A stretch of DNA of 64,000 nucleotides from Lepidurus packardi (taxonomy: Eukaryota > Arthropoda > Branchiopoda > Notostraca > Triopsidae), in assembly GCA_023053545.1 (NCBI GenBank), contig JAKZAN010000007.1:2976001-3040000 (forward strand), in the 5' to 3' direction. Below, in pieces: positions 647 to 23,051 of the stretch. The translations under genes and the position numbers were made by a program. Positions within the stretch are counted from its first letter, which is position 1. Each line of letters begins with the position of its first letter. The notes beneath the pieces were generated by a model. The model was given only the letters and a program-made list of their open reading frames with translations. It had not been told where the DNA came from and did not search any database.

Positions 647-1359
647 TCTGCAAGGTAATCCAGGGACAACGAAATGGGGTCCGAAGGGCTGTAGAACGTC
701 AATGGCCCAAGTGTTGGCACTAACGGAACTTGGGAGGCCTCCACTGAAGAAACGGGCAAATGGAAGATCATAAGTTAAAGTTTACGGTAAAGCGAAAAGA
801 AGAAATAGATGTGGTTAAAATTAAACGACTTACCGTAATGAGGTCTTTCTTTATAGAAATCATGTCTTCGTCTGAGTTCTTCTTGATAGAGGCCGGGCAC
901 TACTTTGTACACGACACTTTGTAAAACAGGATCAGGTCTGTTGGAAAAAAATCAAAATGAGCACAAGACGGTGATTTAGTGTACTTTCTTTTTATTTCAC
1001 CTGATTTTTTGAAACGTACCTGAGTTGTTCGCAGGAACGCGAGCGAATGAGGTGAACGCCGCAGGTAGGACACGAAGCGTAGCGATCCAAATATTGCACA
1101 ATACAAGAACGACAAACTGCGATAGAAAGAAAGGCAATTTTGGGGGGTCAATACAAGGTGCTACCTCTGACAATTTTGTCCTAGATTAAAAAAAAAAGAA
1201 AACCAAACTGTACGTACAAGAGTGCATGCACTCGCTGAGGGTGGTGGCATCAATCAGGTACCCGGCACATAATCCACACGTAAGATGCGGACCCATAGTC
1301 CGCAAAAACCCACGTTCGGAATCTTCGGCGCCATTTTCTTTCACTTCCAAAGTGTTCAT
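647..1359 (-). CDS. Polycomb group RING-finger protein, paralogue A (partial; continues past the left edge)
   Basis: Four exons join in phase on the minus strand: 1359-1218, 1116-1020, 937-834 and 743-647. The product carries a PCGF-type RING finger with Cys28, Cys31, Cys44, His46, Cys49, Cys52, Cys63 and Cys66, counted from the ATG at 1359. The RING is followed by the family segment VVYKVVPGL and then YSPSDPISLSLDY, which opens the ubiquitin-like RAWUL domain. Such proteins pair with RING1/Sce in PRC1, which ubiquitinates histone H2A and represses chromatin. The last exon ends in phase 2 at a GTAAGC donor, so the rest of RAWUL lies before base 1. A good acceptor at 1374-1373 suggests a 5' non-coding exon upstream, which makes the ATG at 1359 likelier than the in-frame one at 1461. 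Exon phases match paralogue B throughout, and exons 2 and 3 have the same lengths (97 and 104 nt). It could be a Psc/Su(z)2-type or a BMI1/PCGF-type gene; the missing C-terminus would decide. PCGF membership is firm. Confidence 0.9.
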
Positions 1360-1461
1360 GTCCAAAGTGTTTCTAAAAGTAAAGGCGAACGAAGTTCTAA
1401 TTATTTTTCTTTGAAACGTTCCCGGCGAGCTCTTTTTGCACTCGATTCGCAATAAAATCAA

Positions 1462-4299
1462 AATCAGACAATTTTTTGGCTACACCTTTAAGAGAAACGG
1501 TAAGAAAGACAGTGTTTGCGTTTTAAGCGATTTGAAAGGGGCGCGCGCGGGCGAATCAAAAAGCGTGCGTCAACGGATGACGCCACGCCGTTTACAGTTT
1601 CAGTTGCGTATTTAGGCCTAAATTTCCGACAATTAGGGTAAAACTCCAGGGAACTTACGAGTATTAAAGTTCCGCGATTCGTTTAGTAAATTATCCCAGA
1701 AGAATTAACTTATTTGAGGCTGAAATTTTCATTTAAAAGCAGGTTAAGATTTTGACGGCATAGCACGGTCAACGATTTTCGGACCGGGACGAGTTGGCGC
1801 GTGACTGCTGGTTAGGCTCCACCCATCTCCTCTGCCTGAGCGCCAATCCGAGACGAGCGCTCCTGTGACGCAGTCCTCATTACCCCCAAGCTTGGCTTTG
1901 GAACATTTAGGTTCGAAATTATGCTAGGAGATTCCATTTTTTTTGGGTAGAATTTTCATCCGTGATAGGAAATTAAAGGAATTCTGTTAGACAGGGAATG
2001 AATATGGAAACAAGATCGCGACAGTTTGTGAAGTCAGGGTGTTTCCAGGCTCCAGAAAAAGGGCGAGAGAGACAATGGGAAAGAACGAGGAAGCCAAGTG
2101 TCTTATAGTTCCACGTCACGGAAACTGAGTTTTTTGTGTGCGCTAATTGGCAAGGCTTCTTGGAAGAGAGCTTTGGTCGGGTGGCAACTAACAATAAGAC
2201 CCTTTTTCTGAGTTCTGAAGTGTTCTAAAGTGGTAAACGGAGGGGAAATGAAGCGTTGAGATGCGACTTTGCAATTTGCAGGCGGAGTGACTTCACTGAG
2301 CCTGGAGTCAAGGAGTTCTAAGAGCTTTAACAAGCAAGAAAACTTCCTCCGAGCTCAAAATGTTACTGAAAAGGTGCCCGGAATGGTTCAGAACGCCAAC
2401 ACCAGGGAAGGCGCGAAAGGATTGACGGATATAGGAAGAAAGCGCGGAGCACGAGTGCAACCAAAACAGCGACACAACATAAAGTAGACGCAAATCTTTG
2501 ATTCCTCTGTACTATTCTATAGGGTCAAATTTTAGACTTCTCAATGGAATTGGGGGAGATTAAGGGTATCACTGACTGTGAAAATCTGAAGGGTAGAAGG
2601 TCATCATCATAGCACATGAGCGAACATAATAGTGGAGACGCTTTATTTGTCACTAATTAGCTCAGTAGGAGATTAGATAGTTGATAAGTTCGCGCTAAAT
2701 GAAACAAGAGATTTCTACTGATAGCATACAAGTCTAATTTCTTTTTCATTGAAGAGTGATGAATCAACACAATAAGGGCTTGGAATTAAACGGTAACGCG
2801 CGGAGCAAATTCGCGCCTATTTACGGGACAAATTTGCGCCTATTCTGGATATCCGAACTCCGCTGGGAGCTTACGAGTACGGGAAAACAGCCATGTGTGT
2901 AAGTGTTTCAGCTAACGTCACTGGAGAATTGGACGCCTATGATGAGTATAGTGAAAAGTGTTACTTAGCCATCTTTGGAGCATCCAACAATGAATTCCAT
3001 GCATGATTGCCTTTCCTACGATATCATATTTGCCTTACCTTACCTGCATAGCCTTACCTAACCTATCATGTCTAACTACTTCACCCCCCCCCCCCCCCCC
3101 AAGTTTGAATGGGATTAAGACAGTTTTAGGGGTAAAGTACACTACTGACATTTTACTAATCCTGGCCTATTCATAGGTCGTTTCAATCAGCTGTCGGAAT
3201 GACTCTGAAAATAAGGGAGTGGTTCGAAGACGAGCTTTGTATACAGTATAGTGGAATAAAAACTTCAGTTGTATAGTTTGCTCACGGTCATGGTGCAAAA
3301 ATCGTGCGCCAGTCTTCACACCTTAACTGCGCGGAACTGAAAGCACGTGTTTAGCTCGTGATAGTTCAGGACTCGGGATTTTTTGTAGATTGAAAGGAGA
3401 ATTTACGGATGACCGACCTGACCAGCCTCAGACTTCAAGTTTTTGTGGGAATTTCGCTACGGTACGCTGTGAAATTTGAGCTCTTGTAGATCGACGATCA
3501 CGAGCTTAGACGGTACTTCGATAACAGTCATTTAAAAATGTGCAAGTCCTAAGGGCTATGGAGGAATTTCATCGTTGAATTCTATCGAAGCTTTGCAAAA
3601 CTAGCTCAAAAACTTCAAGCTCGTTTTGCAAAGCTTCGCAAGATTAAATTAGTGAAGAAGTCATGAACTGTATATAGTTAAAGCGTACTGGCGACTTATA
3701 TATCAGTCTTACCCGCTAATGAGTTATGATTGAACGATTCTGAATGACGCTAATAAGTAAATGCTTTTGCTGAGTCGTCCTGGCCAAATACTGTAGACGT
3801 CGTGGGATCTCCCGTATTGCTAAAAGCGTTTTGCGGCACATTCAATTGATAGTTTTCCCAAACTATATTCCCGTAACGTAACGGAGTCTTAAGCAAACTA
3901 TAGCTGTAACTATGCCTACAAGTGAATGCCTACTAATTATACCTACTATATAATTAGATGCGACCCACCTACAGAAGGCCCACGAGTTTCGCAATGAATA
4001 AGCTGTAGCTCACGGAATTTCTTACAGGAATAAAGCTTTTAGTCTGGAGCATCCATTACTTCTATTACGGAACATCCATCGCGAGGACGCGAGACGTCCC
4101 TTGAATTTGTACCATGGGAAAAGCGCGTGACGTCTCTTAGTAGAAGGCATTGAAAGCCAAAGAAGCGCCAACAAGAAAAAGGAAACAAAAAAGCTGGGAA
4201 GGAAACCATCTTGTATACAGCTGCGGTTCGAGAAAAAGCCCAGCGCCGCGCCAAGAGACGCGTAGCGTAACGTAGAATAGAAACGCTAAAAAAAAAGGC
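1462..4299. other. Gene-free stretch upstream of PCGF paralogue A
   Basis: A CG-rich patch at about 1540-1600 and 1790-1870 could be promoter sequence. A 17-base poly(C) lies at 3084-3100. No gene seen. Confidence 0.5.
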
Positions 4300-5800
4300 C
4301 CTTAGGAGTTTCTATCCTTGACATGCTAGGCTGGAGCGAGGGGCCAGCGCCGAAGAGACCTCCAGCACATCACACATATTACCCACACACAGAGCAGACC
4401 CAAGTTCCTTTACCTCAGACGCGGGAAGTAAGAGCCGCATAACTTTGCGTTGGGTGCCGCTATGCCGGCAGAACGACCGTCGTTTCGTGAGTTGGACGGG
4501 GTCTGCGCGCCTTAGCCGCCTTTACACCGCGCGGACCCCAGAGCCCTGGACCTCCAAAGAACTCAGGAGCGGGGGACTCCAGAACTATATATTTTCGCGG
4601 TGATCGACGACCCAAGCCAAAGATCCCCAGCAGAGCGAGGAAAGCTGGGGGAAAGGCCTGCTGTCATGTGCCCCTGGCGTCACCATCTAACTTTTATCCG
4701 CCCCTTTGCACCCCTCCCTTCTATCCCCTCTCTGTTTTGGCCCTCACACATACGGATGGGAAGTGGGGTTAGTTACGAAAGGTAAGTTCGAAGGGTTCCA
4801 AGCTCCAAAACAAAACAAAATTGGACCGATGTTTAATATTAAAGAAAATGCAACGTACGTTAGATTGTATCGCTGAGTTGGCCGAGATCGACTTACGTTT
4901 GGGTGGAGAAGAGGGAGCTACGGAGGAAAATCGTTATCCCGACGGAACCCGGAGGTAGCACACCATTACTCGCACATATATACTACCACGTCGACGGTGC
5001 GTCGCGTACTGAAAGGGCGAGGAATGAAGCCGGAGCCCGGGGAACGGAGGGGAACCCGGCCGGCGTAAACGCCGCTGAGCCCGGGCTTCGCCAGACGTTT
5101 TGGGGGGTAGAGCGAAGGATCTAAGGGAGGGAGGAGCGTAGGATGGTTTACGCTCTCAAAAAGGCGGGTGAACCTAAGGCTAGAGACCAGTAACCATGTG
5201 CCCGGGGACGGCCCGGTGGCCCAGAAGGGAGCGTTACGGAGGGGGAGAAGCGGAGGGGGTTGGGTATGAGCGTGCAACCAAAGAGAAAAGAAGCGTCGAT
5301 TTTCCCGTCTTCCTCCTTTTCTTTTTCTTTTTTGTTCGCTCGCTTCTTCTTCCTTCGTCTTACTTCTAAAGGGGTCCTGTGGCGCAGGGCCCTGTGAGCC
5401 CAAGGGCCGTGGGCTCCAGGGGATGCGGATGCGTGAGTGTAAGTTGTACAGTACTACGGCTTGACAAGGTACGAAGGCAGCGGCGTATATTAATGGGGAA
5501 AACCTAGGCGCACATATATAGACCCGGCTATAATGGGAAAAGGAGAGGGCCGGCGAAGGAAAGGCAGGGAACAACAGCCAAGGAACACAGGCCGCGACTC
5601 GATAGTTAATTCAGAGGGGGGTAAGGTATTTGGATAGTTAGTATTTTTTAAGGGGGAGTTGGGTGGAGGCCGGATTTCCGTGTGGGGAATGCAAATGGAC
5701 AATGGTTTTTAGATTGAGCGCTGACGTGGATTACGGGAAGGAGGAGGGCTGACAAGGTGGTGGGAAGAAGAGGAGCCCCGCCCTGCTGGGGTATAGCGGG
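4300..5800. promoter_or_regulatory. GC-rich island with TATA-like boxes and splice donors on both strands
   Basis: This 1.5-kb stretch is clearly richer in G and C than its surroundings. It contains CTATATAT-type boxes near 4585 and, in minus orientation, near 5515. A strong GTAAGT donor occurs on the plus strand at 4782 and another on the minus strand at 4896-4890. Long ORFs here, up to 202 codons on the minus strand, have simple Pro/Arg/Ser-rich content and no domain, and are best read as a result of base composition. A 5' non-coding exon and promoter for paralogue A, or a non-coding RNA, is possible but unproven. Confidence 0.35.
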
Positions 5801-6409
5801 TGAAGGGAAGGTGATTATTGACTGTCATAAAGTCCCGATTTTCGAGTGAGATTATGATATGGCCGGGGGTTTATAACAAGCATGTCGGTAATTCAGGTTT
5901 TCCGAGGGTTTGGGGAACGAGCCTTGCCTGCTTGGATGGTTTTTTTTTGCCGATGGCTTTTGGAAAAATTTGGACAGATGATCTAAAAGACGTGACAAAA
6001 CGATGTCGAAGGCGAGCCATGTGATGTGTGGAGGAATTTTAGGTCCAAAGAGTCAGGTTCGTCGATAGATTAGCGGATGGGGTTTCGTTACGGAGTTCCG
6101 TTGGAAGGTGTTGGGTTTAAAGTTTAGTTTTGAATTAAAGAGGAAGGATCCCGTGACTTGAAATTAAAGCTTTATCGGGTGATATATCCTATGAGCTCCT
6201 TGACGATGAGATGTTCTAAGCACAGATTCGAAGGTCAGTTTGGAGCACTTGGAGTCGCGGACATAAACCATGTATGGCGGATTCAAGTCTCAAGGACCGG
6301 CAATCGAATATTTGAACTTGTACTTGGAAGTGGGTTTTAGCGTTTGACCTTACACGAAGATAGGGAATTGAGTTTGTATGAACAGTAAGAACTGGGCTGA
6401 TGGAATAGA

Positions 6410-6790
6410 CTAAGCCATACAGTGATTTAGTTAACTAGATTCTAGTTAACTGAAGGGTTAACATGCTCTTTATAGTTAATTAGAAAGTTAACTACTCACC
6501 TAGGCTGGATGGGACAAGTTAACGACAATTAGCTCCTTCTACCTGAGTTAATCGCACTTAAGTCAGTCGTCTAGAAATGACTGCATTGAGGTTAAAGGAC
6601 ATCTTCATTAAAGAAAAGGTAAAGTCTAGTTGCCTCACTATCAACAGCATTCATTCAAATGGCCTTCAGTTTGTCTTCTCAACGCTCAACAACAATTCCC
6701 GATTCTTGGCCTATAGTTGAGCTCGATTATCGTTTAACTGACATTAGCTTCCCGTCTAGCCTAGGTATAAACTAAGCTAATTGGACGACG
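6410..6790 (+). repeat. GTTAAC-rich interspersed repeat, copy 1
   Basis: CACCTAGGCTGGATGGGACA, AGCTCCTTCTACCTGAGTTA and CTTAAGTCAGTCGTCTAGA occur in this order. The same blocks appear reversed at 20.45-20.60 kb, so this is a dispersed family with self-complementary GTTAAC units. No ORF is present. Confidence 0.6.
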
Positions 6791-7475
6791 TTGACAAAAA
6801 TATGATTAGTTGAGAGGGAGAATGAACTTAGACCGTGCGTTGTGTTGTTTGTATTCGAATAAGTTCGACTTAAAGATACGAATTTATTTGTCAGCAAAGG
6901 TGCGTTAAACTTCTTACATACACATACAGAGAGAGATTTGAAACAAAGTGGACTAAAGCTTGAATGGGGAGTAAGCCGTGGAGACTTCTCTTTTATACTT
7001 GATCAAATGGTTCAAAAGATCTAGAAAGTTGTTGGGGATACGTTCAGAAAATATGTAAAGCGGAGAAACAGTAGAACTTTTGTAACCATGTGCACAGTGA
7101 GAGATCGACATAGGAATTTCCTATAGACATACTTACGCTACGGTTGTGTACTACGGTACATGGAGCAGTTAAACTAGCGTCTTTCAACGCCACAGGATTA
7201 TAGTACTTCAATACCCTATAGTCCGCAAGACGCTATTGTGGGCAATCTTTAGCCAACGTTTTTGTTATAGTTAAACCACCAATTTAGAATATGTTGCAAC
7301 TATAAAGTTTGGTAGGTAACTACAGGGTACGATAAAGTCAGATGTTTCCTTGCGAAGCTTTATGGTCAACCGCGAAAGAAACTGAACGGGTTCAGAAGGT
7401 CGAATAAGAATAGCACATTTCAATTTCTCCATCTCTAGAAGGCACTACGTACGCTAAGCAACCGCGTAGTAGAAG

Positions 7476-7500
7476 TTTTTTTTTTTTTTTTTTTTTTTTT
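7476..7500 (+). repeat. Poly(T) tract of 25
   Basis: Twenty-five consecutive T followed by GCTTTACGGGGGG. It could mark the tail of an old minus-strand retro-insertion, but no element body was recognised. Confidence 0.9.
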
Positions 7501-9779
7501 GCTTTACGGGGGGCAAGAAGTGTCTCGAAAGATTGAGCAATCTTGAATCTGCACATGTGACCCTCATCGCACTTAACTTCTTACCGTTCTTACTTCTTAC
7601 AGTTTAGCGGGTTCACATTGCCGAATCGTTAATTTCATTCTCTACTTTAAGTGGACTGAACTAAGAGAGTCAAAATAAATTTTTGCAGCTTGGGATGAAA
7701 ATTCTCGTAAAGTTGAACCTTACTATAAGCCTAAACCTAAACTATGGGAATTTCGGGACCAAAAAGGATGTATTTCATTAGAAAAGTGCAGTTGAAGCTT
7801 TATTACTCCAAACTGAAGGCCACCCATTTGTACCTTCTTTGATTCGAGAAAGGATTTCAGAAGCCCAACTTGAATCCATGGCACATGGAACCTTCAAAGC
7901 GGTCCAACGAAATTTATACCGATCTTTCAAAAATTTTCCCGTCAAGACAAGCGTGCCTTAGGAACACAAGCTCCGTGGCGTATCCACGCAGGAGGATATT
8001 GAGTTAGTTACGTTATTTAAGCTTAGAGGTCCAGCTGGATTGTATTAACTTTAAAGTTAGAAAATTGCGTAAGTTTTTAATGACCGTAAGATTATGTATT
8101 TGGGGGTAAAGCGTGTGGTTTATGCCAAAGGCAGGACAAAAGGGATTTACACAACGCTCAGTCAAAGTCACCACCCTAAACTTGTCCCCGGGTTGCATCC
8201 TTATCCCAATAGGCTGCCCGGACCCCGGCTTGGGCCCCTGAAGCTCCGCCTCTGCCTTGGTTTGCGGCCCCGTAGCAACTAGTCTCTTCTATTCCTTGGA
8301 ATGAGGTTCAATTGTACGAAGTATGACAATTGATGGCCCTAAAAATTACTCTTTAAATGACAAGATTTTCTCGTAAACTATTACTTAATATGCCTTCTAT
8401 TTTTAACCAAAATAAAACACTAAACAAGAAAAATTGTTCAACCCAAATGTGCTACCGACAAGAATAGACGACTTTAGAGCACAGCGTATTAGGTTTGTAG
8501 AAACTGCATGGGGTATACATATGTATATTTCGGTTTAGAGTTATAAATTTTTATAGAAGGAATTTCCCTTAATGGAAAAGCAGTCAAATTTCCAAAGAAA
8601 ACAGCATTCCCTGGAGGTTGACGTGCAGCATTTTTTATTCCAGCTCTGAGGGGCAATAAGTCAATCTTTTGCGAAGTGTTCAAAGTTATTTGATAGTACA
8701 AGCAAGCTTAACGCAGGTATGTATACGTGGGAATATGTATATTACCGAACGCTGAATACTATTGATAGCTTGAATAATTTTGCTACCTTAACAGCAACGA
8801 ATCCCAAGGACTAGTATCCTAAGATCGTGTCGAGTGATGCAAGAGTAATAACTTTTCACCATTTTAAGCATACCTTTTAAAATCCTGAACAAGGAATAAT
8901 CCGGTACGGCGTTTGATGCCGTGCAAGCAGTATGACGCCTAAAAAAATTCATTATATATCTGATTTTCTTTGATACTAATCTTTCAGCATTGCTCATTGT
9001 AACCCTTAACTAATCGTTAAATCTGCTTAAAGAACTTAAATGGTAGGAAACGAAAAGTGACGCTTATTAGCTAACCTTCAATTACTATGTTGCCAGCACA
9101 GCATCATCGTTATGATATGCTCCGCGAAAGTATTCAACTATCCTACCATCAGTGAACGATGAACCGTCCACGGACTGTGCCAATCACGTAGAAGGCTACA
9201 AAAATATTGTTGTACGGTTCCTACCATAATTTTGTTATTCAGTAACTTTCAAGCATGTCGTCATGAAAGACTTGTACGAGGAAGATCCTTAACGGAAGTT
9301 ACCCCGTCTATTCTATAACAATTATTATGAAACTGCCATCATGACTGTCGGAATGAATTCTTCTAGCTGCGAAGGTCTGCAAGATCTAAGGATTCGTGGA
9401 CTACGTCTCGTAAAAACAAACTGCGACCTGATTCTCAGGTGACCAAGCAAAAAATTAGGACACTAGCTGATTTCTACCAAAGTATTAAGTGAGTAATTAA
9501 GTATGCAATTTGAGTGATTCGTAGATATTTCTTCACGATCTATCACTTGCTTCCTATGTTGATTGGGTTAGTTAACTGCAAAAGCGGGCTCATATCATGC
9601 GATGTTAGTTGACAAACTTATGCGTATCAAATGGTGATGGATGTGCATATATCAGTAGCTGATTAGCCCCATGTTAAGGCTCAAGTAACATTGGATGCTT
9701 TCGGTAATTTGGAAATAAGCGACTGGCTTTCCATTTTAGGTTGCTCATTATTTATAGCCGGCCCCGTTGAAGTTGTATA

Positions 9780-11040
9780 TAGTTTAATCTTTAGGCCTGA
9801 GACATATATATACCTTTGTTTTTAATGGCGCCATTTGAGCCGTAACGTAACCGTAAAAACGCTGAGCAAAATGATCCCGAAAGTTCAGATGCTCCCCAAA
9901 AGCGGCGCGCGGCGGAGCTGAGGTATCGATCGGTATATATGTGCTCTTGGACCGAGAAAGCCCTCTTTTTGGACGCTTAACGTAGAACGGGGGTTGGGTA
10001 TGTATACCATATTAAAGGGGTTTTCTCTTTAGCCCTTGCACACACATGCTACACACACTTGCTGTTTCCCTTGCCATCCCCAGCCATTTTCCATGGCAAC
10101 CAACGTATATCGACGCCCTCTGTAATACCAAAACAGTTGAAAGACGCAACAGCGGATACCCGAAGAAATCCCTCATGAAACCCTCACAGTGTAGCTCATT
10201 TTGCTGCTGTATTATTTGGTAGACACTGCAGAGTCAGATCAGTGATGCTGGGATTCAAAGGGGACGCTACAAACCATAACACGACCCTAGAATCAACGAT
10301 CATAGAATCGCTAGCCTTCACTGATTCTCTCTTCCCCTCTTACACTAACTCTTTTCCCTTGTTCTCCGTTTTTTTTTCTCCTTCGTTCTTAAGGCCGAGA
10401 ATCGATCTATATTATATAAAAGGGAGCAAAACCCTAGAAGAAGGCGGGTGGTGGGGGAGGGTGGGGGAGGATGTGAGATTTAAGCCAACCCGTAGTTTTT
10501 CTCTTATCCCTTTTGCAGCCTGTAGAGAAACTGCATCCATTTCCAGTCCCGAGCACATCCAGACTCATTAGTTATGCAAAGAAGGATTTGTAGCGACCAT
10601 GTGACGCACCTGTGTCGAGTTCCCACACCAAAAAGTTTATAGTATTTTGAGGTTGGCGTTTCAGATAGACTGACTGCGAGACAAAAGATGGTGAAGAGTT
10701 CTTTTCAATTAAGAGGAGTGTGATGAAATTTGACCAGATAATTCGCGAGCTTCTCGAGAATTATTTAGAACTTAAAAGTTTCTGGAGCTTGAGAAATGAA
10801 AATGTTTTTATGCCTGACGCAGAGCAGCAGAGCCGCCAAGAAGAACGAAGAAAGGCAAGCCAAGCAGCAAGCCAAGGCCATTTGGCTCGATTAACTAAGC
10901 AGAAACGGCGAAGGAGGAAGAAAGAGGAGAGAGGAAGAGACGGTACAGAGAGAGAGAGAGAGAAGGAGAAGCAAAAAGCTCGGAAAGGACCTCCCGCCAG
11001 CCAAGATCCATTAGCGCAAGGCCTCGTGTAATATACATGG
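9780..11040. promoter_or_regulatory. Purine-rich block with G-quadruplex sequence and GA repeat; candidate Polycomb response element
   Basis: ATATATATA at about 9805-9813 is followed by G-rich DNA at 10443-10470 with four or more runs of three to five G. A GA repeat lies near 10950-10963 inside a purine-rich tract. A GCCGCCATTA sequence (reverse strand, about 11520) carries the GCCAT core bound by Pho/YY1. GAGAG, G-rich Sp1/KLF-like and GCCAT sites are the usual ingredients of fly Polycomb response elements, and the block lies between two Polycomb genes. The ORF of 103 codons at 10720-11031 is Lys/Arg/Glu low complexity and probably not a gene. Confidence 0.3.
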
Positions 11041-14000
11041 CTGGTTTGCTGATGTCAGACGCAATTTTCGAGGTTGACGCTAATTTGGCGCATGCGCTTA
11101 TTATACATGATAGCCATGTTTCAATTTAGGGCGATTTCAAAGGTGGTTTTAAAGTTTGGAGATCGGGTTTATAAGATTCATGAACATCTTTTGCAAGTTC
11201 AAGGGAATGCTTCTACAACACATTTAGAGCAATTGGGTTAAATGTTTTTAGCAAAATAATGTTTTGCGTGCAGGAATGCGGGTTACTGGGGTTAGACAAT
11301 AGGGGGCGGATACGTTAAGAAGATCATGCACTGCATATGATAAAATAGAAGATTTAAGTTCGAAGAGATCCAACTTCCTAATTGCGGACGTTTTTTTATT
11401 ATTTAGCTAGTTGAAAAGCAATATTTTATAACAGTTTTTACAGTTTTAGTTCTAGAGAAGATTGGGACTGGTCTGCGCAGTTGCTGAGGCGTATAACCTT
11501 AATTAGGGCAAGGTGAGTAATGGCGGCGACTTGACCCTACGTGTCGTTCGTGACCTTTAACGTGGAGTTGGATTTCGCGGTGTTAGCGAAAAAGAAGCAA
11601 ATTCCAGCTTAAGGTATATGGCAAGGAATTACATTACTACAATTCATGCTGTTTCAAGGATCGTTCGATGAAGTGTTTCGTGACCGTTTTATTACAATAA
11701 AACACCTTGAAACTTGCAGTAGCGTGGTATTATTGTAATGCAAACGCGAATCCGAAGGCAATTCGTTTACCGCGAGAATTAACAGATAAAGTATCATGAA
11801 CAGCTACATAGGAAGTTGTAATAGAATTTGCTTTTCTTGCACCTTTACTGTGTACAAATGTAGTGAAGATTGTGGACGACTGAAAATTACCGTAAAGATT
11901 GCTGAACTTGTTTTCCAGTGTACAGCTTGGTCATTAAAGCTGGAAACCGTAAGTTAGATGCAGTTTAGAGTTGCAACCTAAACTGGAAAGCGGGTAACGC
12001 TTTTAAATATTCAAGCGATTCAATTTGATTATGCTTAATTACATATTCGACAAATTTGTCAAAGATCATACCAGATAATCAAGTAAAATTAAATTCTACG
12101 ATGAGTATTTTACAATAGCAGCGGATGTAGAGTAAGACCCTTCCGTTACTATAATTCCAGCAAATCGTTCGAAATTCACGCGGTTTGAGTTCGGACTTGA
12201 ATTAACAGTATCTTACCGTGAAAGTAGAATGCAAACTGTTTTCTAGAAATAAATTGTCTCGAAGAAGGCCTGCTGACATCCGTGAACTTCCAACGCGCTT
12301 GTAACGTCTCTACCTCCATTAGTTTCTGCAAGAAGACTTAAAGCGCGACTTACATCATTTCGCATACTTCCGTTAAAGTAAAAAAAAATGTTTACATTTA
12401 GTTGAACGATGAGACCGATGATACAGTTCTACGTTCCTTAAACCTCAAGTTCGGAAATTTACTGATACCCTTGGAAAAAGAGATTATTCTTTTCGGATCT
12501 GGGTATCATCCGGGGTGATTAGGGTTGAACTAGTTCATGAGGTCCGAAACAAGAGCTTGGTTGACCTGAGCGACCGTACAGACAGCCACAGTGACGTGTT
12601 GATGAGGTATAAAGCGGGTGACGCCCCCTCATGCCACGTTGCGAGTTGTTTTTCGAGACGGAAACGGAGCCAAAGTCTGTCCTCAAAGCACGATAACGCC
12701 TCTAATGGCGCTATGGCGTGCTGACAATGACTTCCACCAACCTAAACCTTTCTGAACTTGTGAATTTTATACCACTAAGTCTTTCTAGCTCCCAACGGGC
12801 TTTAAACAGCGATTTAAGTTTCCAAGAAAATTTGTATTTGCTACTAAATTAGTGACCCATATTCACCCGGTAGATACTTTCCCCGTGCTTGGACGTTGAA
12901 GAAACTTTATCTCCCGGAGATCTTGTGGAGTTAAAAAGGTTCCAAAGGTTGAAAACACATGTAAGTGTAACAAGACGGAGTCATATTTAGAGCGTACGGT
13001 CGCGGGTGTCTCAGGATTGGAGCGATTCTAGCATTCTGTTCAGTCCTTTTGGCGCGTGTCAGCTAAATTTAGCCCTCCACCCGTTGTATCCCCCCACCTC
13101 CCCAACACCCGTCACACATTCCTTTGGATTTGGTTTTCAATTTCCAGCTAGGGTAGTGTTTACGACATCCGGCAAACAACCCCAAAAAACGATAACAACA
13201 GTTATCAACACTTTTTCCCCCATACAAGTAAGAAAAACGATGTCTGTACACTATAAACAGGGTAAACCTCATCCCTGCATAGTTTTCTTGCGACCCTCCA
13301 GATACTCTTGAGTCGCTCATGGTGATATATGTAACGCTAAGAAGTAGCAGAAGGTAGCTCCGTATATGTTTTGGACGGTTTGTATATCCCAACAGCGTAT
13401 CCAGGTGGGAAGGAGTCCTTTGAACGTGCGACGACGAGGTGGTTGCCTGGTTGGTTTGGGTTGAAAAACCGACAGTGAGACGCAGCGAGAGAGAAAACGG
13501 GGCATTGGGGACTTTAATATGAGGGGCGACTTGTTAGGTTCTTGGGGTAGGAAGGGGAGGTGGGTTGGAAATAGAGTAAGATAGAGAGTCGGGAGAGGAA
13601 TGGGAATGAAACGGCTGGTTCAGCGCGTAGCAAGGAGAAGTAGGGAATGGGAAAGGAAGGAAGGGAACAAGATAAAGAAGGAGAGGAAAGAAGGAAGTTG
13701 TGCGGTGTTGCCTCCCAGCTATTTGAAATCACAGAAACGTGCGATGACGAGCCCACGAGGTGCTGTGGGTGCTAAACATTTCTTTTTATTCCTTTTCACC
13801 TCATTTCTATTTAAGAAAATTAATAGCATCTTCATCGCCGTTATTTATTCACGTTCTTTCGCCTATATTTATTCATCACTTAGTACCACTGTATAATACA
13901 CAGTAGGATAAAAAGAGTATCTTCCAATGTGAAGTTTTTAGAACTGCTTTTCTCGGTTTCAAGAGGATGTGGCAGTACTAAGGAACATAGGAGGGATGGA

Positions 14001-14916
14001 TTCACCGACTTAACCATCGTACTGTCAAGTAGGCATTCCTAATCCATCTGAAAAAGGGTTCGTAAATAAAACAAGGCATTCGCAAAACGGGGGACTGGCA
14101 ACCTTTCGCTCGGGTACTCTGGGGAGTTCGGGATTGGCCTAAGATCCGACCTGCATTGTGTCCTGTAAACGGTCGTGACCTTTTTTTAACTGCACTGGGA
14201 GGTTTAAGAATGATCCCTTTGATATTAATGCCTTTTACCTGAATATACGCTGGGGACCCATAAAGTCGGCCCAACACCTTTACATTGGTAGACACCTTTC
14301 TTTTTTTTGTATAACCGACGTGCGTCTGTTGTCGGATCTTTTTATTTACTAGGACGTTTTGACATCTTTCTTTTGTTATTGTATACATTTATCACGACAG
14401 CTAGGGTCGGTGGAGTACCTTTCGAAAGGGTTTCTATGATTGGTTGATATAGTTGGTTAGTAATTTAATATGGTTATTTAGTTAGTTGTTTAGTAGAGTT
14501 AGTATGGTTAGTTCTTCCTTACATTTGCTAATTCGTGAGAGCAGAATTAAGTTTTGGACGTTCCTCCCATTAGTTGTGCAAAAGGCCTAATCCGTTGAAC
14601 GCTTTTGGGTTGGATGGGACTTCCTTTTGCATTGAAATGAATCTTCAGAAGGCTTAACTGTCGCAGTAGTTTTGCTCTCTCCTTGTTTAATTTCGGTCAA
14701 TGTAACAATAGATGGGGGATGTAACAATAGATGGTCAATGAAACAATAGATGGGTTTTGTCTGTGTTTGGCAAGAGCATCTATCGTAGTCCGCTTTTTAT
14801 GCGCTTTAGATATTCTAGCCATGGAAAATAGTGTTCTTATTTGAATTATTTTCGATACCGTTGTTACCCTACTATGTTAACCTTTATACTGTGCTTAGTA
14901 CCTTTACACTTTCATT
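11041..14916. other. Gene-free stretch between the PCGF paralogues
   Basis: It contains a pyrimidine/purine-skewed segment at 13000-13900 with overlapping low-complexity ORFs and the 19-bp triplicate at 14700. No coding exon recognised. Confidence 0.5.
14700..14753. repeat. Three tandem copies of a 19-bp unit
   Basis: ATGTAACAATAGATGG occurs at 14700 and 14719, and ATGAAACAATAGATGG at 14738. Confidence 0.8.
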
Positions 14917-14922
14917 TTTATT
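14917..14922 (-). terminator. Candidate polyadenylation signal of PCGF paralogue B
   Basis: A canonical AATAAA on the minus strand lies about 200 nt after the stop codon of paralogue B, in AT-rich DNA. The position suits a short 3' UTR. Transcript ends were not seen, so this is inference from position. Confidence 0.4.
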
Positions 14923-15120
14923 TATGAAATAAAGAAATGGAGAAACGTTTTCATTTATAACGATTTTTGTATTGGCAGACAAAAATATTCTGGGTTAGCA
15001 TAAAAGGAACATAGATTGGTCAATTCACAGCCGAAAAATTTCCAATAACCTTACAAGGAAACGAAAGAATCACTTCAGAAGTCCCCCGTTTTTTTCTCCC
15101 CATCTTGAATCTTCTTTTCT

Positions 15121-18100
15121 TTATGGAGCTTCAGAAGTACCGGCCAGGTTAGGGCGACTGGAGACAGGTGGGATTTTCAATACTGGGCTCTTTTTGGAAT
15201 CTGTTTTGTTAGGCGAGCACGGAGAGCATTTTCGGTTGGGTCCGGTACTGTTGCCGGTACTCTGAGTAACATTTTGGTCGGTAGGATTGTTCCCATTGGG
15301 CCGCAAAGGAAGGGTTTTGAGTCCCGCGGCCGAAACGGGCAATCCAAAGCGCGAAAACCAATTTTGCAAGAGGTCCAAGTTCCCGTATTGCGCTGCGGCT
15401 GCGAGCCACGTGGGCGCTAAAGGTTTCGGGACGCCTTTCATTACATTTTTGGAGGGTTGCAGTCGTCTGCTGGACTTGTAGCTACTACTGGGTGGTGGTG
15501 ACTTCATTGGCGAAGGGGCTTTTGTACCCGGTAAGGGTGACGCAGTACTCTTTACACCACCGCGTAGGTCTACAGTACGTCCAGTATTTGGGGTAGCGAC
15601 TGCAGAAGGAAGACTACGGGGGTGGGAGAGGTCTAGCACCCCTGCTTCCGGTGAAGCCACCGGACTAGGATCGTCAATTATCAGGAGATCGTCGTCCGAA
15701 CCATCTTGGTCCTTTCTGGTATTTGCAGTAGTGGTTGGTATGGAGATCGGAGGTGACGATAGCGATTTAAGTAAGGGACTGATAGCAGTCGTAGTAGTAG
15801 TAGGCTTGGGGAGAGGCGTTGTTAAGGGTTTCAAGGCGGGGGGTGGGCCTGGCGGGGGCCGGAGATTGACTCGGATTTGGGATAAGCCCAAGGCGGCGTC
15901 TGCGAGCGTTTTGGGGCTGATTCCATTGTTAACGGACCGTTGTCCACCGTTCGGGAGACGGATACCTACCCCGCCCGTACCAGGAACAATGGTAGCGACG
16001 TTAGGAAGTGCTTTATTGGAACCAAAGAGTAAAGCCGCTCTACTATAGTCGGACATTTTGATAAAGCTGAACGGGTTGGGACTGCCGGAGGTACCGGCGG
16101 CGAAAGCGGGTGGTTTGGGTATGGGAGGCGTCGTATCACTGAAGAGGACGGATTGAAGACTTTCGCCGTCTTGTGGTGGCACTGGAAAGAGTGGTCTGGA
16201 GGGGACTCTCTTCGGGACGGTGGTGATGGTGACTTGGGGACTAAAGGCCGGGGCAGAGTGAGCAGCGGCGGCGGCGGCCAAGGCCTTTGGCAGAGTAGGG
16301 CTCCGTTGGGACCTGTCAATTATGAAGGGTTTGTTCATCCGGTCTACAGCAGTCGAAGACATGACGGGATGAATGGAGACGGCCGGGGAGTTTAGTTTGG
16401 CTGCCAGAAGGGTGGCGGCTGAGGAAGTTGAAGCGGATGGAGTATCCACGATGGGTACAACAGGCACTGGACGCTGTACTGGTTTCAAGTCGAGCAGTTT
16501 CGTGAAATCCTCCTTACTTAGGGTGTCGTTGGGACTTCGGGATAAATCTATCGAACGGGAGGCATTCGCTGCGGATTTGAGGGGAGTGGTTTGGTCTTTG
16601 GGTAGCTTCTGAGTACTACAGTGACTAATGGTGAAGTTCCCGGCCATTCTCTTGCGAGATTTAGGATCGCTAGTGAAAAACTTGGGCTTTTTGACCGAAG
16701 AGAGCTTAGAGTTCCGCGGCCCGGTACTAGAAGTACTAGCTAAGGCGCCTTTGATGTGCGAACGGTCCACGGAATCATGCGAGGACGTCTTTTTCCGTTT
16801 TCGGTTGGGATAATCGTTCTTCAAGTTAAAGGTAAAGGTCAGGGGTTGCTGATTTAAGCTAATTAAGCCAGGGATGGGACGACTGGGTTTAGGGTTTAAA
16901 CCCACATCGAGTGTTGAATTGATATTGGTGGACTCGTGGAAAAGGGGTTTGGGGGCAGACGGGTAAGAAACCGAAGGGATTTCCGGAGAAGGCAAAGAAG
17001 AAGAAGTACCGGCTCTGCGGGGAGATGACGCGGGCAGTTGGTTGAAAGGGGGTTCACCTTTACGATAAGCTTCTCGCATGACTCGTAATCGCTCTTGGGC
17101 TTCGATAATGTGCTTTCCGTGCGATTTGCGGCGAACACCGATTTGTTTCTTCAAGCTTCTTTTCCGACGTTTGCGTCTGCTTCCATTTAGAGACTCGTTG
17201 GATGAAACGGGAGCGTCTCTGCCAGAATCCTGGCCTGTATCTTCTTCCGGTAGGGGTAACAATACCGGTTTGTTTGGGGATACAACTTCTTTGGCTAGTT
17301 TGACGCCAGAAACTCTCTTACGAAAGTTTCTGCGATGAAAAACTGGCGCTTTTAGGACATTCAAAGTCTCAAACGCTGGGGAGGGTACCGGTAGTGGTGC
17401 TACCGTTGGGGGTGGTAGGGTTAGAACCGCTGGGGACGGGACTGGGGTGGTTTCCTTTTTAGGGTCTGATGCGAGGTTAAAGTTGTATCGTAACCGCATA
17501 GGTTCCCTCTATACAATCGAATTTGCGTGTTGATTTGTGGACAAGTTTCTCTTCACTTTTTTTCTTTTTTGTTTTTAAGAAACAGACAAGGACAGCATGC
17601 AAATTGCGTGCATGCTGCAAGCTGACAACAAACGAGGAAAAGTGAAAAAAACGTACCTGTTTCCATGCGAAAATGTACGCCACGTCGGATAAACGGTACT
17701 CCGAGGCTAATTTGGCACGGCCGTAAAGAAAGTCCACCTTAGGGGTTCAAAGGAAAGGTCGAATGATTGGCATGGAGCAGACACACAGAAACTGGTAAAA
17801 CTTACATTGTAATTGTCGCCGACTTGGTACTTGCGTCGAAGGAGCTGTTCCAAGAGGTGAATCGTTACCGCCGCCGGACATTTGAAGTACCGAATTCCGT
17901 AGTGAGGCTATGGTGAGAATGTTCCAAATCATTATTTATTACGTAATGTAATTAGATTACACTATTCACTATTAGACAAACTCTAAGGTTATCTTAATAA
18001 ACAATAACTATGTTCATAAAAATTACACGTTGTTAGTAATGCTATCCTAAGAGAGGTTGAAACCTACTTCGCTTGCTTCTTGAGACACAATGGCGGGTTT

Positions 18101-21100
18101 CCAGGCTTCTTTCTCCGGCGAAGGCCTGTAATCCAAGTAGTTATTTTAATGACATTCAGTTGTATGCAATTTTCAGAGTTGAAATGATTTTAAGGCTTTC
18201 GAAGACCGTTGCCATGGACGGGCTTTGCAAGGCATACGTGGTTTGGAACGGGTAATTCGGAACGCCTTTTTTGCTAAAACCGATGCAAATTATAGAAAAA
18301 CTCGTCAACAGTAAAGTTGAGCATACTAATAACTAGTGTACATAACCAAAGGTTTGTGTATGGCGTTCAGAGTGAATTAGAGAGTACGTAAAATAGATTG
18401 CATCTCCAAATTAGGCTTCTGCTTTGAAGTTCGTCATCCTTCCATTATGCAAATCGTATTTTTTTCTATCATTTTATATAGAGATTGTCTTTCATTTAGG
18501 AGAAAAATGAAGCACGTTCATTACGCTCTCATGAGAGGAGAAATGCAGAAGTAATTGGACCTGAAGAAATTCGAGCCACAGCTTGTTCATATATCATCAC
18601 GGTAATGACCACTTCAACCACACAGGAGTTGGTTTGATATGGTCTCATATCCTTTTAACTATAGTCACTCGGTTTCAGTAACTATACCATTGAATTTCCC
18701 GACACTTTTCTTGAACGACCTACTTTCAAGCTTAAATGACGCTAGGTTATTTTTGCTCTGTTCAATATCAATACCAAAGCAATACTCAGAATTTGGAAAT
18801 GGTCATACCCTTCGATACTACTTTAGTACGTTTTTCAGAAAAATTGCCTACATATTGAGTACATGGATAAAAAGTTACCCTGCTTGCCGTTTCATGCGCA
18901 GAAGCAATGCGCGTTCAAATACATCCATACAAAGCACCGCGCGCCTCCTCGCGCTAGCTTCGGTGTAACAAGCTAAGCTCTACGGGGGAGCCTTAATATA
19001 ATCTGATTGAGCTTAAAACTGAAGTGAACTGAGATAAAATGTCAACGATAGACTAGACAGCATCAGCGTATTTTAAACAGGTAACTTCCACTTTGATAGC
19101 TCAATAGTTGTATCCTTAAGGGACGAGCTTATGGGAAAAAACAAAACAAAAAAAAAACGGAAAAAAATGTTGACGGAAGAAGAATAAAAATGCGGTGTAA
19201 CACATGATGCATATCAAGTAGGGTTTTGGCATACAGGTACATAAACCATTTTGGAAAATGCTGCCATGAACCTTCTTGGGGGTCTGGGACATAGATTGCA
19301 TGTTTGCGGATCGGATGACTGGCCAATCCTTTTGTCTATCCTTGTTCTTTTCCTTTTCCTGTTTATCTCTTGACTGTACGATTTAAAAGCTTATTTTTTT
19401 CCATCCCAGCGTTCAAAACCTTAACGATAAAAAAGGCTAGAGGTATCAATGCTCTTGAAAGAATCGTTGATTTCCTAACGACTTTTCTTAAAATCTCGTT
19501 ATGCAATTCTAAAGAATATTCTAACGTTAACTTGGCATCAGAAAGTATATATAAAATTGTAACAAAATCCTTAAACATTGCAGACAGTGTCTACTAAATA
19601 ACCATCTCGCCCAATGGATACTTGGCGTTTGGCGACGAGGTTAGATGCGTAGCTACACAGTAGCTCTATATAGCTCGAGTTATGGATAGCTATACACCTA
19701 TGGGCTAGACAGAACGCTAATGTCCATGAAATGTTAATGGAGCTCAACTTGGTCCAGAACGGGGAATAGTTGATGGCATCCAGACGACAAACCGATAATC
19801 CATTTTAATAAAGATTAAACCTTTCCAATTACTATTATTTACGCTTATGGCGTATGTATGTGTAGCACCTTATCACATATTAAACACTTTCGCGCAAGGA
19901 ATTTCATTCGAACGGCACGAAATTGACGTTTACGTGTGTGCACGTTTGGCCAATGATTTTTTTTTTAAGTTTTCGGGCAGAGAAATTTTTCTCGTTCAGC
20001 TGCTAATCTTGTGCAGTAGATTAGCTAGGAATAGAATCAGATAATTTGTCTCAAGCAACAGTGTCATTTATAGGCCCTCTCTTGAGTTTTCCAGATATAT
20101 AGATACACCAGAAGCTCTGAAACAGTTTGTTAAGACCATCTTTTATCGTACTTAGGCCGCAATCCCTAATTTCTGCCGGAGTTGGGTGGCTTAACATAAT
20201 GCAAGCAATGATACAAGCTAGATCCCAACGAACATTACGAATTTTCCGAGAATTCCGAATTTACGTGCAGTTTGAGAAGACCGATTTTCGTTTTGATCTG
20301 TATTGGTTATTTTCTATATTTATATGAGCAACAATTGTGCGAATTGATGGAAATGCAAAATTTGCCATCCTTGTCCTAACTTAATGGGCCTTAAATTGTC
20401 TACACAGGACTTTAATGGCCATTAAAAGTTACGGGAGTTGTAATAACTCCTTCAATTGGAAAGCTCCGTTAACCTTAACTGAGTCGTCTAGACTCAGTTA
20501 AGGTTAACTGAGATTAAGTGAGATTAACTCAGGTAGAAGGAGTTAATAGACACTAACTTGTCCAGTCTATCCTAGGTATCATAGCTATAGGTGTTATACC
20601 TGTGTGGAAGCTAACGAGCTTCCCCCCCCCCCCCCCTGGGGAAAAATCCTTTACCTCCCTACCGGTAACCTAGGATCTTTTTCCTCCCGACTAAATTAGA
20701 CTACGACCATTAAGAAAAATGCTCACAGACTTTCAAACACAAACATTGATTAACTATTGCTTATGCCCATGGGCGGCGCTGAATGTCAAAATAACCAAAA
20801 TTTCGCCTCGAAAACAGTGCGCTGAAACATCGAAACGCTGCTATGCTAATCGCAGTTCCGTAGACATAATGTCACAGGGTAATTTCACAAGGTATCTTTC
20901 CCTTCTGTGACCTTCCTACCAAGGAAGGTCCTAAAAACCTTCGAAACCATCATATAATACAATAACCTTATCCCAATATACCTTTGACTTTATTCCGCTC
21001 TATTGCCGCGACATTTAAGATTCTTTGTTAGCGTAGTTGCACTTGAGATTATCTACAGACTTTTTGGATATCAAGAAAAGTGAGAAAACATTTTCCATAC

Positions 21101-23051
21101 AACAATTTGAATTCCAGATATTGCATACAATCACTAGAAACTATAGTTTGGTCCAAAAAGTTCCCACGTTAAGCTATTCGCTTCCCTTCGTTATCATGGT
21201 TGAAGCTCGAAATACATTGCAACTATCACGTTTGATAAGGGATCGGTTTCCGGTTACTCGCGCACTGCACAACAATTCGGTTGTGCCAGTTCAAATCCAC
21301 GGGAAAATCTTACATTCTCGCTTTCTCAATATTAAAGATATCTGTAAGCATCTAATAATGTAGAACCTCGCGTGAGGAAATGTGATTTTCTTCTCATATG
21401 AAAATGTTTTTTGTGAGCTAACGTTTATAACAGTGTCAAACACCTGTAAAGTGAGGGAAACTGAACGAAAACGAAACAAAGTTTGGAAGGTCTGGGAATC
21501 TTAAAATAGTTTTAGAAAGGTTTTATGGCGTCACGCGCAACAAAAAATTCTTCAAATGGATCAGGTGGTAACGAAACTTGGAAAGTGTTCCCTGCAATAT
21601 TGCGCCCTAGCAGTTACAGGACATGCGACGTTACCCAGTGACAAAGTAATAATGAGTGGGGTTGCAGTTGGTACTTACGGGACAAATTCCAGGGAGAAGG
21701 AGATGGAATCGGTTGGACTAAAGAAGCCTTCCAGGTGCAGTTCTCTCGCTGCTTGGGCCACTCCAGCTGTTAGAACGACATGAAAAACAACATTTATACG
21801 CCTTCATTACTACCACTATTCCAATAGTAATTGTTATATTCCTCCTATTGTATTATTCCTCATGTAAAAACAACCAATCATGTTCTATTGTAAATTGAAA
21901 ACTAAAGATGTAAAACTAAACTGTAAAACTACCTTTAATGGTACAGAATAGGTCTTAATGCCATTAACTCTGCCTTAAGAAGTATAGACTTAACTTCAAA
22001 AATAGCCAGCAGATTAAGGCTTCCTCGTATTGCTTAGCTTTCTATAGCACGATAGTAATGGGAACGGAAAAGCACTTTTACGTCGAAAGTGCATGAGAAT
22101 TTTTAAAAAGTTTATTGACAGTAATGTAGGTAATAGCAATAAGAAGGGCACGATAAGTTTTTTTTAACGTTTTCTTTAATTCATTTGAGAAATGCAAATG
22201 AATTTTCCCCCTCGCGAACTGGGTAACTTGGAAAGTGTCATACTAGACATTATTTAGGTATTTTAAAAAAATCACGCCAATTGAGTGCTTAGTTATAGAC
22301 TAAGCACTCCTTGCGGTAGCTTGGTTGTAACAATGTAAACTGTAACGGGGCCTTAGGGCAACAGTTAAAAGGATATTTAAATTCGAAGAACTGATTGCGA
22401 CTACTCTGAACTAACTAAACCCCAAAAGCCAACTAATTGTGCGAAATGGCTCCTCTTACCTGAATTCGCTTGATTAGCGTAGAAATCAAGGCGTCGTTGA
22501 AGCTCTTTTTTGGAGAGGTCAGGTACGAGTTTATAGACGATCGTTTGTAAGGTATGGTCCCGTCTACAAGCACCAGAGACAACTTTAGGAATTGTGCACC
22601 CAGTTTCGAAGAAACTTCCAAACTTAATCCGCAGTGTGTACTTACTTGAGATGGATATGAGGTCGAGAACTCTGTAAAGGCACTTGACAAACGGGGCACG
22701 CCGCATTATGTTCCACATACTGAAGGATACACGATCGGCAAACTACATTCAAAATAATTACTATTGCAATCACACTTGTTTTCCGACTCCTACATTCCAC
22801 TGTAGTTTGGTATTACTATACGGAGTCGAGAGTGGTTTTAAACACGGGAAAATACAATCGACTACGGAAAGAGTGAAGCGGTAAAACTTACAGGCATGCA
22901 GGCATTCCGTTACGGTAGTCGCCTCTATGAAGTACCCTCTGCATAAGGGACACGTAATAAGGGCATTGTAATCGCGGACTAATCGACTACTTTCAGTCGG
23001 ATTCGTAGTCTCTTGACTGATCGTCCGCGTCTGTGTACGAGCTGGACTCAT
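15121..23051 (-). CDS. Posterior sex combs / Su(z)2-like Polycomb RING-finger protein, paralogue B
   Basis: Seven exons are seen on the minus strand: 23051-22892, 22742-22646, 22563-22460, 21766-21679, 17907-17806, 17737-17657 and 17508-15121. The RING finger uses Cys34, Cys37, Cys50, His52, Cys55, Cys58, Cys69 and Cys72, followed by TLQTIVYKLVPDL. The RAWUL domain runs through exons 4-6 (FFSPTDSISFSLEF, CPAAVTIHLLEQLL, LSDVAYIFAWKQ). The last exon encodes about 795 residues rich in Ser, Pro, Thr and basic clusters, as in the long disordered tails of Drosophila PSC and Su(z)2, which compact chromatin. BMI1-type proteins are only about 330 aa, so the Psc/Su(z)2 form is favoured. The total is about 1006 residues plus a gap: exon 4 ends in phase 2 but exon 5 begins in phase 0, so at least one linker exon of 3n+1 nt is probably hidden in the 3.77-kb intron. 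An acceptor near 23064 suggests a 5' UTR exon. The stop codon is at 15123-15121. Confidence 0.93.
18830..19005 (-). repeat. Foldback/MITE family member 2 (end module, reversed)
   Basis: Reverse complement of the family end module: ATGCGCAGAAGCAATGCGCG, CCTCCTCGCGCTAGC, GTGTAACAAGCTAAGCTC. It lies in the large intron of PCGF paralogue B. Confidence 0.7.
20440..20700 (-). repeat. GTTAAC-rich interspersed repeat, copy 2, with hairpin
   Basis: Reverse-orientation relative of 6410-6790. At 20469-20507 it holds a perfect inverted repeat with 17-bp arms and a 5-base loop (TTAACCTTAACTGAGTC-GTCTA-GACTCAGTTAAGGTTAA). A poly(C) run of 15 lies at 20622-20636. It is within the large intron of PCGF paralogue B. 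Confidence 0.65.

Follow-up and report, generated by a model that had tools for sequence, protein, structure and literature searches.

Flies possess both Psc and Su(z)2, which adjoin one another in Drosophila and serve as a standard case of redundant PRC1 subunits. A single deficiency, XL26, removes both genes, and the two are redundant in fly stem cells, as reported in PMC13399535. A second study (PMC10821450) describes PSC as disordered for the most part, its C-terminal region being long and disordered, and attributes to this tail both the compaction of chromatin and the bridging of chromatin into networks by PRC1. For BMI1, PMC8594731 reports that the ubiquitin-like domain binds PHC2, and identifies the ubiquitin ligase with RING1–PCGF pairs. 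Among the literature matches listed, we found no publication that deals with PCGF genes of branchiopods or with how old the Psc/Su(z)2 split is.

Like Drosophila Psc and Su(z)2, the two genes of Lepidurus packardi considered here, A and B, are a pair of PCGF4-class paralogs, but their sequences favor a separate duplication, and L. packardi also retains a BMI1-like gene, C. Our reading is that A and B probably arose by tandem duplication of a PCGF4-class ancestor, after the split from the BMI1-like line of C and independently of insect Psc/Su(z)2. The window—the whole 64,000-nucleotide stretch that was analyzed, C6:2976001-3040000, in a genome of 108.6 Mb and 344 contigs—holds all of B and the first four coding exons of A (Table 1). 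Both genes lie on the minus strand and both are intact, with eight coding exons each: 142, 97, 104, 97, 43, 99, 81, and 2193 nt in A, encoding 951 residues, and 160, 97, 104, 88, 58, 102, 81, and 2388 nt in B, encoding 1025. Exon borders were placed manually on the sequence and then joined by script, and the start codons are predicted from sequence. The initial annotation had described two same-strand PCGF genes about 14 kb apart, equal in the sizes of exons 2 and 3 and in their first four intron phases, and the completed models bear this out: 13.8 kb separate the stop codon of B from the start codon of A, every intron is GT...AG, and the phases run 1,2,1,2,0,0,0 in both genes. The tail of A, which had been placed outside the window, does exist; leftward extension into the adjoining 10 kb (L005) completed the paralog with its last four exons, all with AG/GT borders. 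Within the spacer, two open reading frames gave no Pfam match, and Rfam gave none at gathering score across the window, spacer included.

Table 1. Coordinates of the A/B gene pair; positions are those of the window, except for L005, which counts within the adjoining 10 kb.
Feature	Position	Strand	Remarks
Gene B, coding span	23051..15121	-	
Gene B, coding exon 1	22892..23051	-	predicted start 23051; first half of RING; phase 1 donor GT
Gene B, exon 2, 97 nt	22646..22742	-	second half of RING; phases 1/2
Gene B, exon 3, 104 nt	22460..22563	-	phases 2/1
Gene B, exon 4	21679..21766	-	linker with FFSPTDSISFSLEF; phases 1/2
Gene B, exon 5	18068..18125	-	linker; phases 2/0
Gene B, exon 6	17806..17907	-	RAWUL, first part
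Gene B, exon 7	17657..17737	-	RAWUL, second part
Gene B, exon 8	15121..17508	-	RAWUL, last part; long, basic tail of low complexity
A–B spacer, 13.8 kb	1360..15120		between A start codon and B stop codon
Gene A, first four exons	1359..647	-	
Gene A, coding exon 1	1218..1359	-	predicted start at 1359
Gene A, exon 2, 97 nt	1020..1116	-	
Gene A, exon 3, 104 nt	834..937	-	
Gene A, exon 4	647..743	-	gene runs on beyond the left end of the window
Gene A, exons 5-8	L005 6620-6662, 6448-6546, 5865-5945, 3575-5767	-	

A and B are intact paralogous genes of the PCGF4 class of PRC1 subunits, each encoding a RING, a RAWUL and a long low-complexity tail. The RING scores above the Pfam cut-offs for both zf-C3HC4 and zf-C3HC4_2, with its cysteine and histidine ligands complete in the alignment, and the RAWUL (PF16207, cut-off 33.5 bits) reaches 72.6 bits in A and 60.2 in B. 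BMI1 is the best solved-structure match of both proteins (PDB), at 37% identity over the domain part: A scores 170 bits against whole-length BMI1 versus 118 against a near-whole PCGF1 and B scores 165 versus 103, the solved chains of PCGF5 and PCGF6 being RING pieces only. With the PCGF3-like protein of L. packardi as the only root row, and with PCGF1, 5, and 6 left out, both nest in the tree among PCGF4-class rows. Grouping of A with PCGF3/5 or PCGF1, the outcome named in advance as contrary to the proposed pairing, was thus not seen, and we rejected A as a gene of those classes (for PCGF1 and PCGF5 by score only). The notion that one copy is a decaying or noncoding relic has next to no probability: nothing was found in its favor, and both genes have eight exons, GT/AG introns, zero internal stops, complete RING ligands and a RAWUL above cut-off. 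A and B are new members of an already known family, and as a pair they are real, intact, old and of a known type; their interest is evolutionary.

The genome was searched with RAWUL and with the proteins A, C, and Bombyx Psc. Besides A and B, these searches identified a third PCGF4-class gene (C), a PCGF3-like gene on contig C3, and a RING1-type gene near C4:11.529 Mb, the last from open reading frame and protein matches. Gene C lies on the same contig as the pair, 2.2 Mb away (C6:752759-756596), and is modeled with five coding exons encoding about 1200 residues. It is C, not A or B, that is the BMI1-like gene of L. packardi: it is 64% identical to human BMI1, carries the tail motifs EVQLxIS and RFFKxRN, and pairs with a Daphnia magna protein with support 100/99 in the 56-row tree (71% identity to D. 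magna P0096 over the tree columns). A separate Psc gene did not emerge from the whole-genome search with the Bombyx Psc-type query, whose matches within the PCGF class came down to A and B together with C and the PCGF3-like gene; it also matched RING1 and other, mostly weaker, RING sequences. B was missing from the matches of the exon-by-exon RAWUL search because its RAWUL is divided between exons, a gap that the protein queries filled.

On a common alignment of the four genes A, B, C, and PCGF3-like, each of the seven introns of A has a counterpart of equal position and phase in B, with an offset of one gap position at two of them; the last three are phase 0 and coincide in aligned column to within that one position. 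C shares three of the seven: the first RING intron and those before and after the RAWUL (columns 55, 189, and 254). The other four (columns 87, 126, 164/165, and 226) occur only in A and B among the four genes compared, and an intron at column 106 is present in C and the PCGF3-like gene and absent from A and B. With seven of seven introns in common, and four of these lacking a counterpart in C, A and B are sisters when set against C, which supports the earlier claim of gene duplication. The common introns further show copying at the DNA level rather than from RNA. A few matching introns taken by themselves call for caution: three of the seven also occur in C, and the first RING intron in the PCGF3-like gene as well, so that such matches are family-wide and cannot date the duplication. 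For this reason, we did not accept matching introns as proving when the duplication took place. Nor can introns separate the A/B duplication from that of Psc and Su(z)2, since the comparison is confined to four genes of L. packardi. On this evidence, a single multi-exon ancestor, having first separated from the BMI1-like gene that would survive as C, probably gave rise to A and B by tandem duplication of DNA.

Sequence identity is less simple, as either A or B is more similar to C (42-43%) than A is to B. One way to arrive at sister-like genes from an older split, such as that of Psc and Su(z)2, would be gene conversion between neighbors. Gene conversion is common between neighbors in direct orientation, as A and B are, and the two do have a short tail block in common; nevertheless, their overall divergence is high, with just 91 of 238 aligned residues matching in the domain part (38%), and we regard this route as very improbable.

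To place the pair among arthropod proteins, we drew on three protein searches that listed 180 proteins (one listing comprising the best 120 of 176), or 183 with A, B, and C. Drosophila proteins were absent among the matches listed, and sandfly Psc along with mosquito, midge, and long-legged-fly Su(z)2 acted as stand-ins; the labels Psc and Su(z)2 are taken from the records of these dipterans. Sorted by motif, 44 of the 183 carry EVQLxIS and KFFKxRN, 72 carry LDLS and TPEQRG, and 39 carry IPNPS and LDLS; the remaining 28 have one motif or none, and no protein of the 183 combines the diagnostic motifs of two classes. For the trees, 52 of the 180 were picked by hand for spread, and tails were left out throughout; the tree without the PCGF3-like row has 56 rows. 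A BMI1-like clade that includes C is supported at 97/94, and a Psc-type clade of wasps, moths, sandfly Psc, whitefly, and thrips at 83/87. The Su(z)2-type part unites bugs, an aphid, a louse, mayflies, beetles, dipteran Su(z)2, and two unnamed rows with A and B. IPNPS occurs in every one of the 15 Su(z)2-type rows from insects and is absent from all 12 Psc-type rows; the linker motif TPEQRG is found in none of the former and in 10 of the latter. Motifs and clades agree, and IPNPS comes from the tail, a region unused by the tree. Considering tree rows only, 0 of 7 dipteran rows belong to the BMI1-like clade.

Two questions follow: whether A and B belong together, and where. Among the matches listed, the sequences closest to A, at 51% identity, are a Daphnia carinata protein recorded as "Psc-like" (P0121) and its near-twin P0122, unnamed in the source; we call these two the Daphnia A rows. 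A joins these two at 99/95 without the PCGF3-like row and 100/95 with it, and B joins the three at 97/93 and 98/93, respectively. A six-state recoding, which lessens composition effects, retains both groups (SH-aLRT 90 and bootstrap 96 with B; 89 and 99 for A with Daphnia A excluding B), although the deeper recoded tree is poor: insect clades are not cleanly recovered, and A and B sit amid BMI1-like rows with low support. Quartets point the same way, placing B with A in 481 of 540, with Psc-type rows in 59, and with Su(z)2-type rows in none; with BMI1-like rows replacing Su(z)2-type, B goes with A in 468 of 468. The 1080 quartets built on the A rows are divided among Su(z)2-type (576, or 53%), Psc-type (302), and C rows (202). 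Together, the trees and quartets support A+B well and the position that the two share less so. For A, which has IPNPS, placement in the Su(z)2-type clade is weak, with support of 91/82 with the PCGF3-like row versus 90/33 without it; B, which has no IPNPS, enters that clade only via A.

The initial annotation had asked whether the pair reflects the same ancient duplication as the fly genes or an independent one, and here the answer is graded. The trees join A and B, favoring independence, and the arrangement of A with Su(z)2 and B with Psc goes unrejected by the AU test. That arrangement would make A the Su(z)2 ortholog and B the Psc ortholog, products of one pancrustacean tandem duplication, with A+B an artifact of long-branch attraction. 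B is the longest branch of the 56 rows (1.14-1.21, or 1.53 without A), and the tree tool itself flagged B and the A rows as long branches placed together. The 59 quartets that put B with Psc-type rows speak for this arrangement, and quartets offer no protection from long-branch attraction. Removal of A and the Daphnia A rows leaves B in an unresolved fork comprising 31 rows. By the AU test, B with Psc-type rows (p 0.153 using 12 rows and 0.127 using 10), B excluded from the Su(z)2-type rows (p 0.075), and A with dipteran Su(z)2 (p 0.165) all go unrejected, and the Su(z)2-type IPNPS of A is absent from B. Against a Psc ortholog, the free trees place B elsewhere, joining it to A as the recoded tree does; B is without TPEQRG, an absence it shares with 2 of the 12 Psc-type rows; and in BLAST its tail has zero matches at E 0.05 to the other tails of the 183-protein set. 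We judge orthology of A to Su(z)2 and of B to Psc to be unlikely. It is to the same degree doubtful that a Psc–Su(z)2 pair ancestral to crustaceans and insects has been kept as neighbors in one orientation, with a BMI1-like third gene on the contig; if this were true, adjacency would have some lasting reason, for example shared regulation.

Timing within the crustaceans raises a further alternative, namely that the duplication is later than the split from Daphnia and B simply fast-evolving. A B-type Daphnia protein is indeed absent among the best 120 of 176 matches, and joining A and B to the exclusion of Daphnia A is not significantly worse by the AU test (p 0.097), but the consistent grouping of A with Daphnia A to the exclusion of B, at the supports given above, and the low identity of A to B make so recent an origin quite improbable. 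On the best tree, A and B would instead have separated before the split from Daphnia, a timing we infer, and would be mutual closest relatives together with the Daphnia A protein, within or beside the Su(z)2-type clade.

The tails, unused by the trees, add a character of their own. They comprise 719 residues in A and 781 in B, with net charges of +29 and +57, and both contain 14-16% proline and 13% serine. The tail of A is basic at first (reaching +19 in a 101-residue stretch, from residue 276) and then acidic (falling to -18, from residue 476), and that of B is basic across nearly its whole length. In both, an acidic-hydrophobic block lies no more than 70 residues before an LDLS motif (in B, the two are encoded in exon 8, at about residues 835-858), and both Daphnia A rows have it as well. 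Among the matches listed, 117 database proteins carry LDL[ST] after residue 250; two of these are the Daphnia A rows, and none of the other 115 has the block. In 20,000 local shuffles, the pattern arose by chance in 0.4% of trials for A and 0.06% for B, although both these figures and the counts are flattering, the pattern having been drawn from these very sequences before counting. Restriction of the block to A, B, and Daphnia A among the matches listed is a further point against splitting A and B between Su(z)2 and Psc. In combination, the A+B(+Daphnia A) group and a tail block unseen in the insect proteins examined favor an independent duplication, and it is likely, in our estimation, that this pair and that of the fly have separate origins.

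A shares the IPNPS and LDLSxKS motifs of the insect Su(z)2-type proteins of mosquito, bug, mayfly, beetle, and louse and lies in or beside their clade, but differs in the acidic block before LDLS, otherwise confined to B and Daphnia A among the matches listed; B differs in lacking IPNPS. An AMRNLxTLS-like motif occurs in 6 of the 183 proteins—A, both Daphnia A rows, Cimex, Menopon and, loosely, Tribolium madens—and is absent from B. P0121 and P0122 share with A the acidic block and this motif, as AMRNLVTLS; unlike A, they are shorter (598 and 631 residues) and without IPNPS.

By analogy with the fly proteins, the RING of each product would engage a RING1-type protein for the ubiquitination of histone H2A, its RAWUL would bind a Polyhomeotic-type partner, and its basic tail would bind and compact chromatin. 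Partners, function, and a partial redundancy of A and B are inferred, the functions from domains. Should the PCGF4 class have duplicated in tandem a second time, the class would appear prone to this arrangement, and the redundancy of the fly genes would not be the general arthropod state. The comparison suggests a BMI1-like gene in ancestral arthropods alongside the Psc/Su(z)2 type; were flies to have lost theirs, Psc would not be a simple one-to-one counterpart of BMI1.

Among the matches listed, no named species is represented by both types, Psc and Su(z)2. The pattern may reflect a limit of the search, complementary loss, or types that are in part one diverged gene. Should the fly genes prove to have duplicated later, an independent origin of A and B would gain rather than lose support. 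Record names are an unreliable guide to these classes: for instance, the planthopper protein P0175 is entered as "suppressor 2 of zeste," yet groups with BMI1-like rows.

Among the matches listed by three protein searches, no named species is represented by both the Psc and the Su(z)2 type. The Hemiptera include both types, with the whitefly row placed in the Psc type by the tree and the bugs and aphids belonging to the Su(z)2 type. Across the matches listed, this absence of species with both types could reflect the reach of the searches, complementary loss or partial one-to-one orthology.

The family in Lepidurus extends beyond the tandem genes A and B to a third PCGF4-class member, the BMI1-like gene C, which shares their contig. 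In the tree, all seven dipteran rows fall outside the BMI1-like clade to which gene C belongs. A PCGF3-like gene, located on C3 (stretch L008), has a second exon of 153 nt that equals its gene C counterpart in size and phases.

BMI1-like genes may also be linked to Su(z)2- or Psc-type genes in Tribolium madens (P0104 and P0140) and Diprion similis (P0043 and P0108), because in each species the source contigs of the two proteins are equally long, at 8,948,946 and 28,020,057, respectively. For Menopon and Dufourea, the contigs of the corresponding two proteins are unequal in length.

Genes of other families surround A and B, among them an open reading frame with a SAND domain that is likely a single exon of a gene whose product acts in chromatin or transcription. 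Intron 4 of gene A contains a run of 32 G on the minus strand (7171-7202 of L005, the neighboring 10 kb to the left).

Coordinates of gene C, the PCGF3-like gene and the neighbors of A and B
Feature	Location	Strand	Remark
Gene C	C6:752759-756596 (L009 3759-7596)	+	2.2 Mb from A/B
PCGF3-like gene	L008 6139-6995		
Methylmalonyl-CoA mutase exons	window 30340-34377	-	include B12-binding match, under Pfam cut-off
SAND-domain ORF	window 52759-53376	+	
Pyridoxal-dependent decarboxylase exons	L006 810-1427	+	downstream of A
Aldo/keto reductase exons	L006 4395-4778	-	downstream of A
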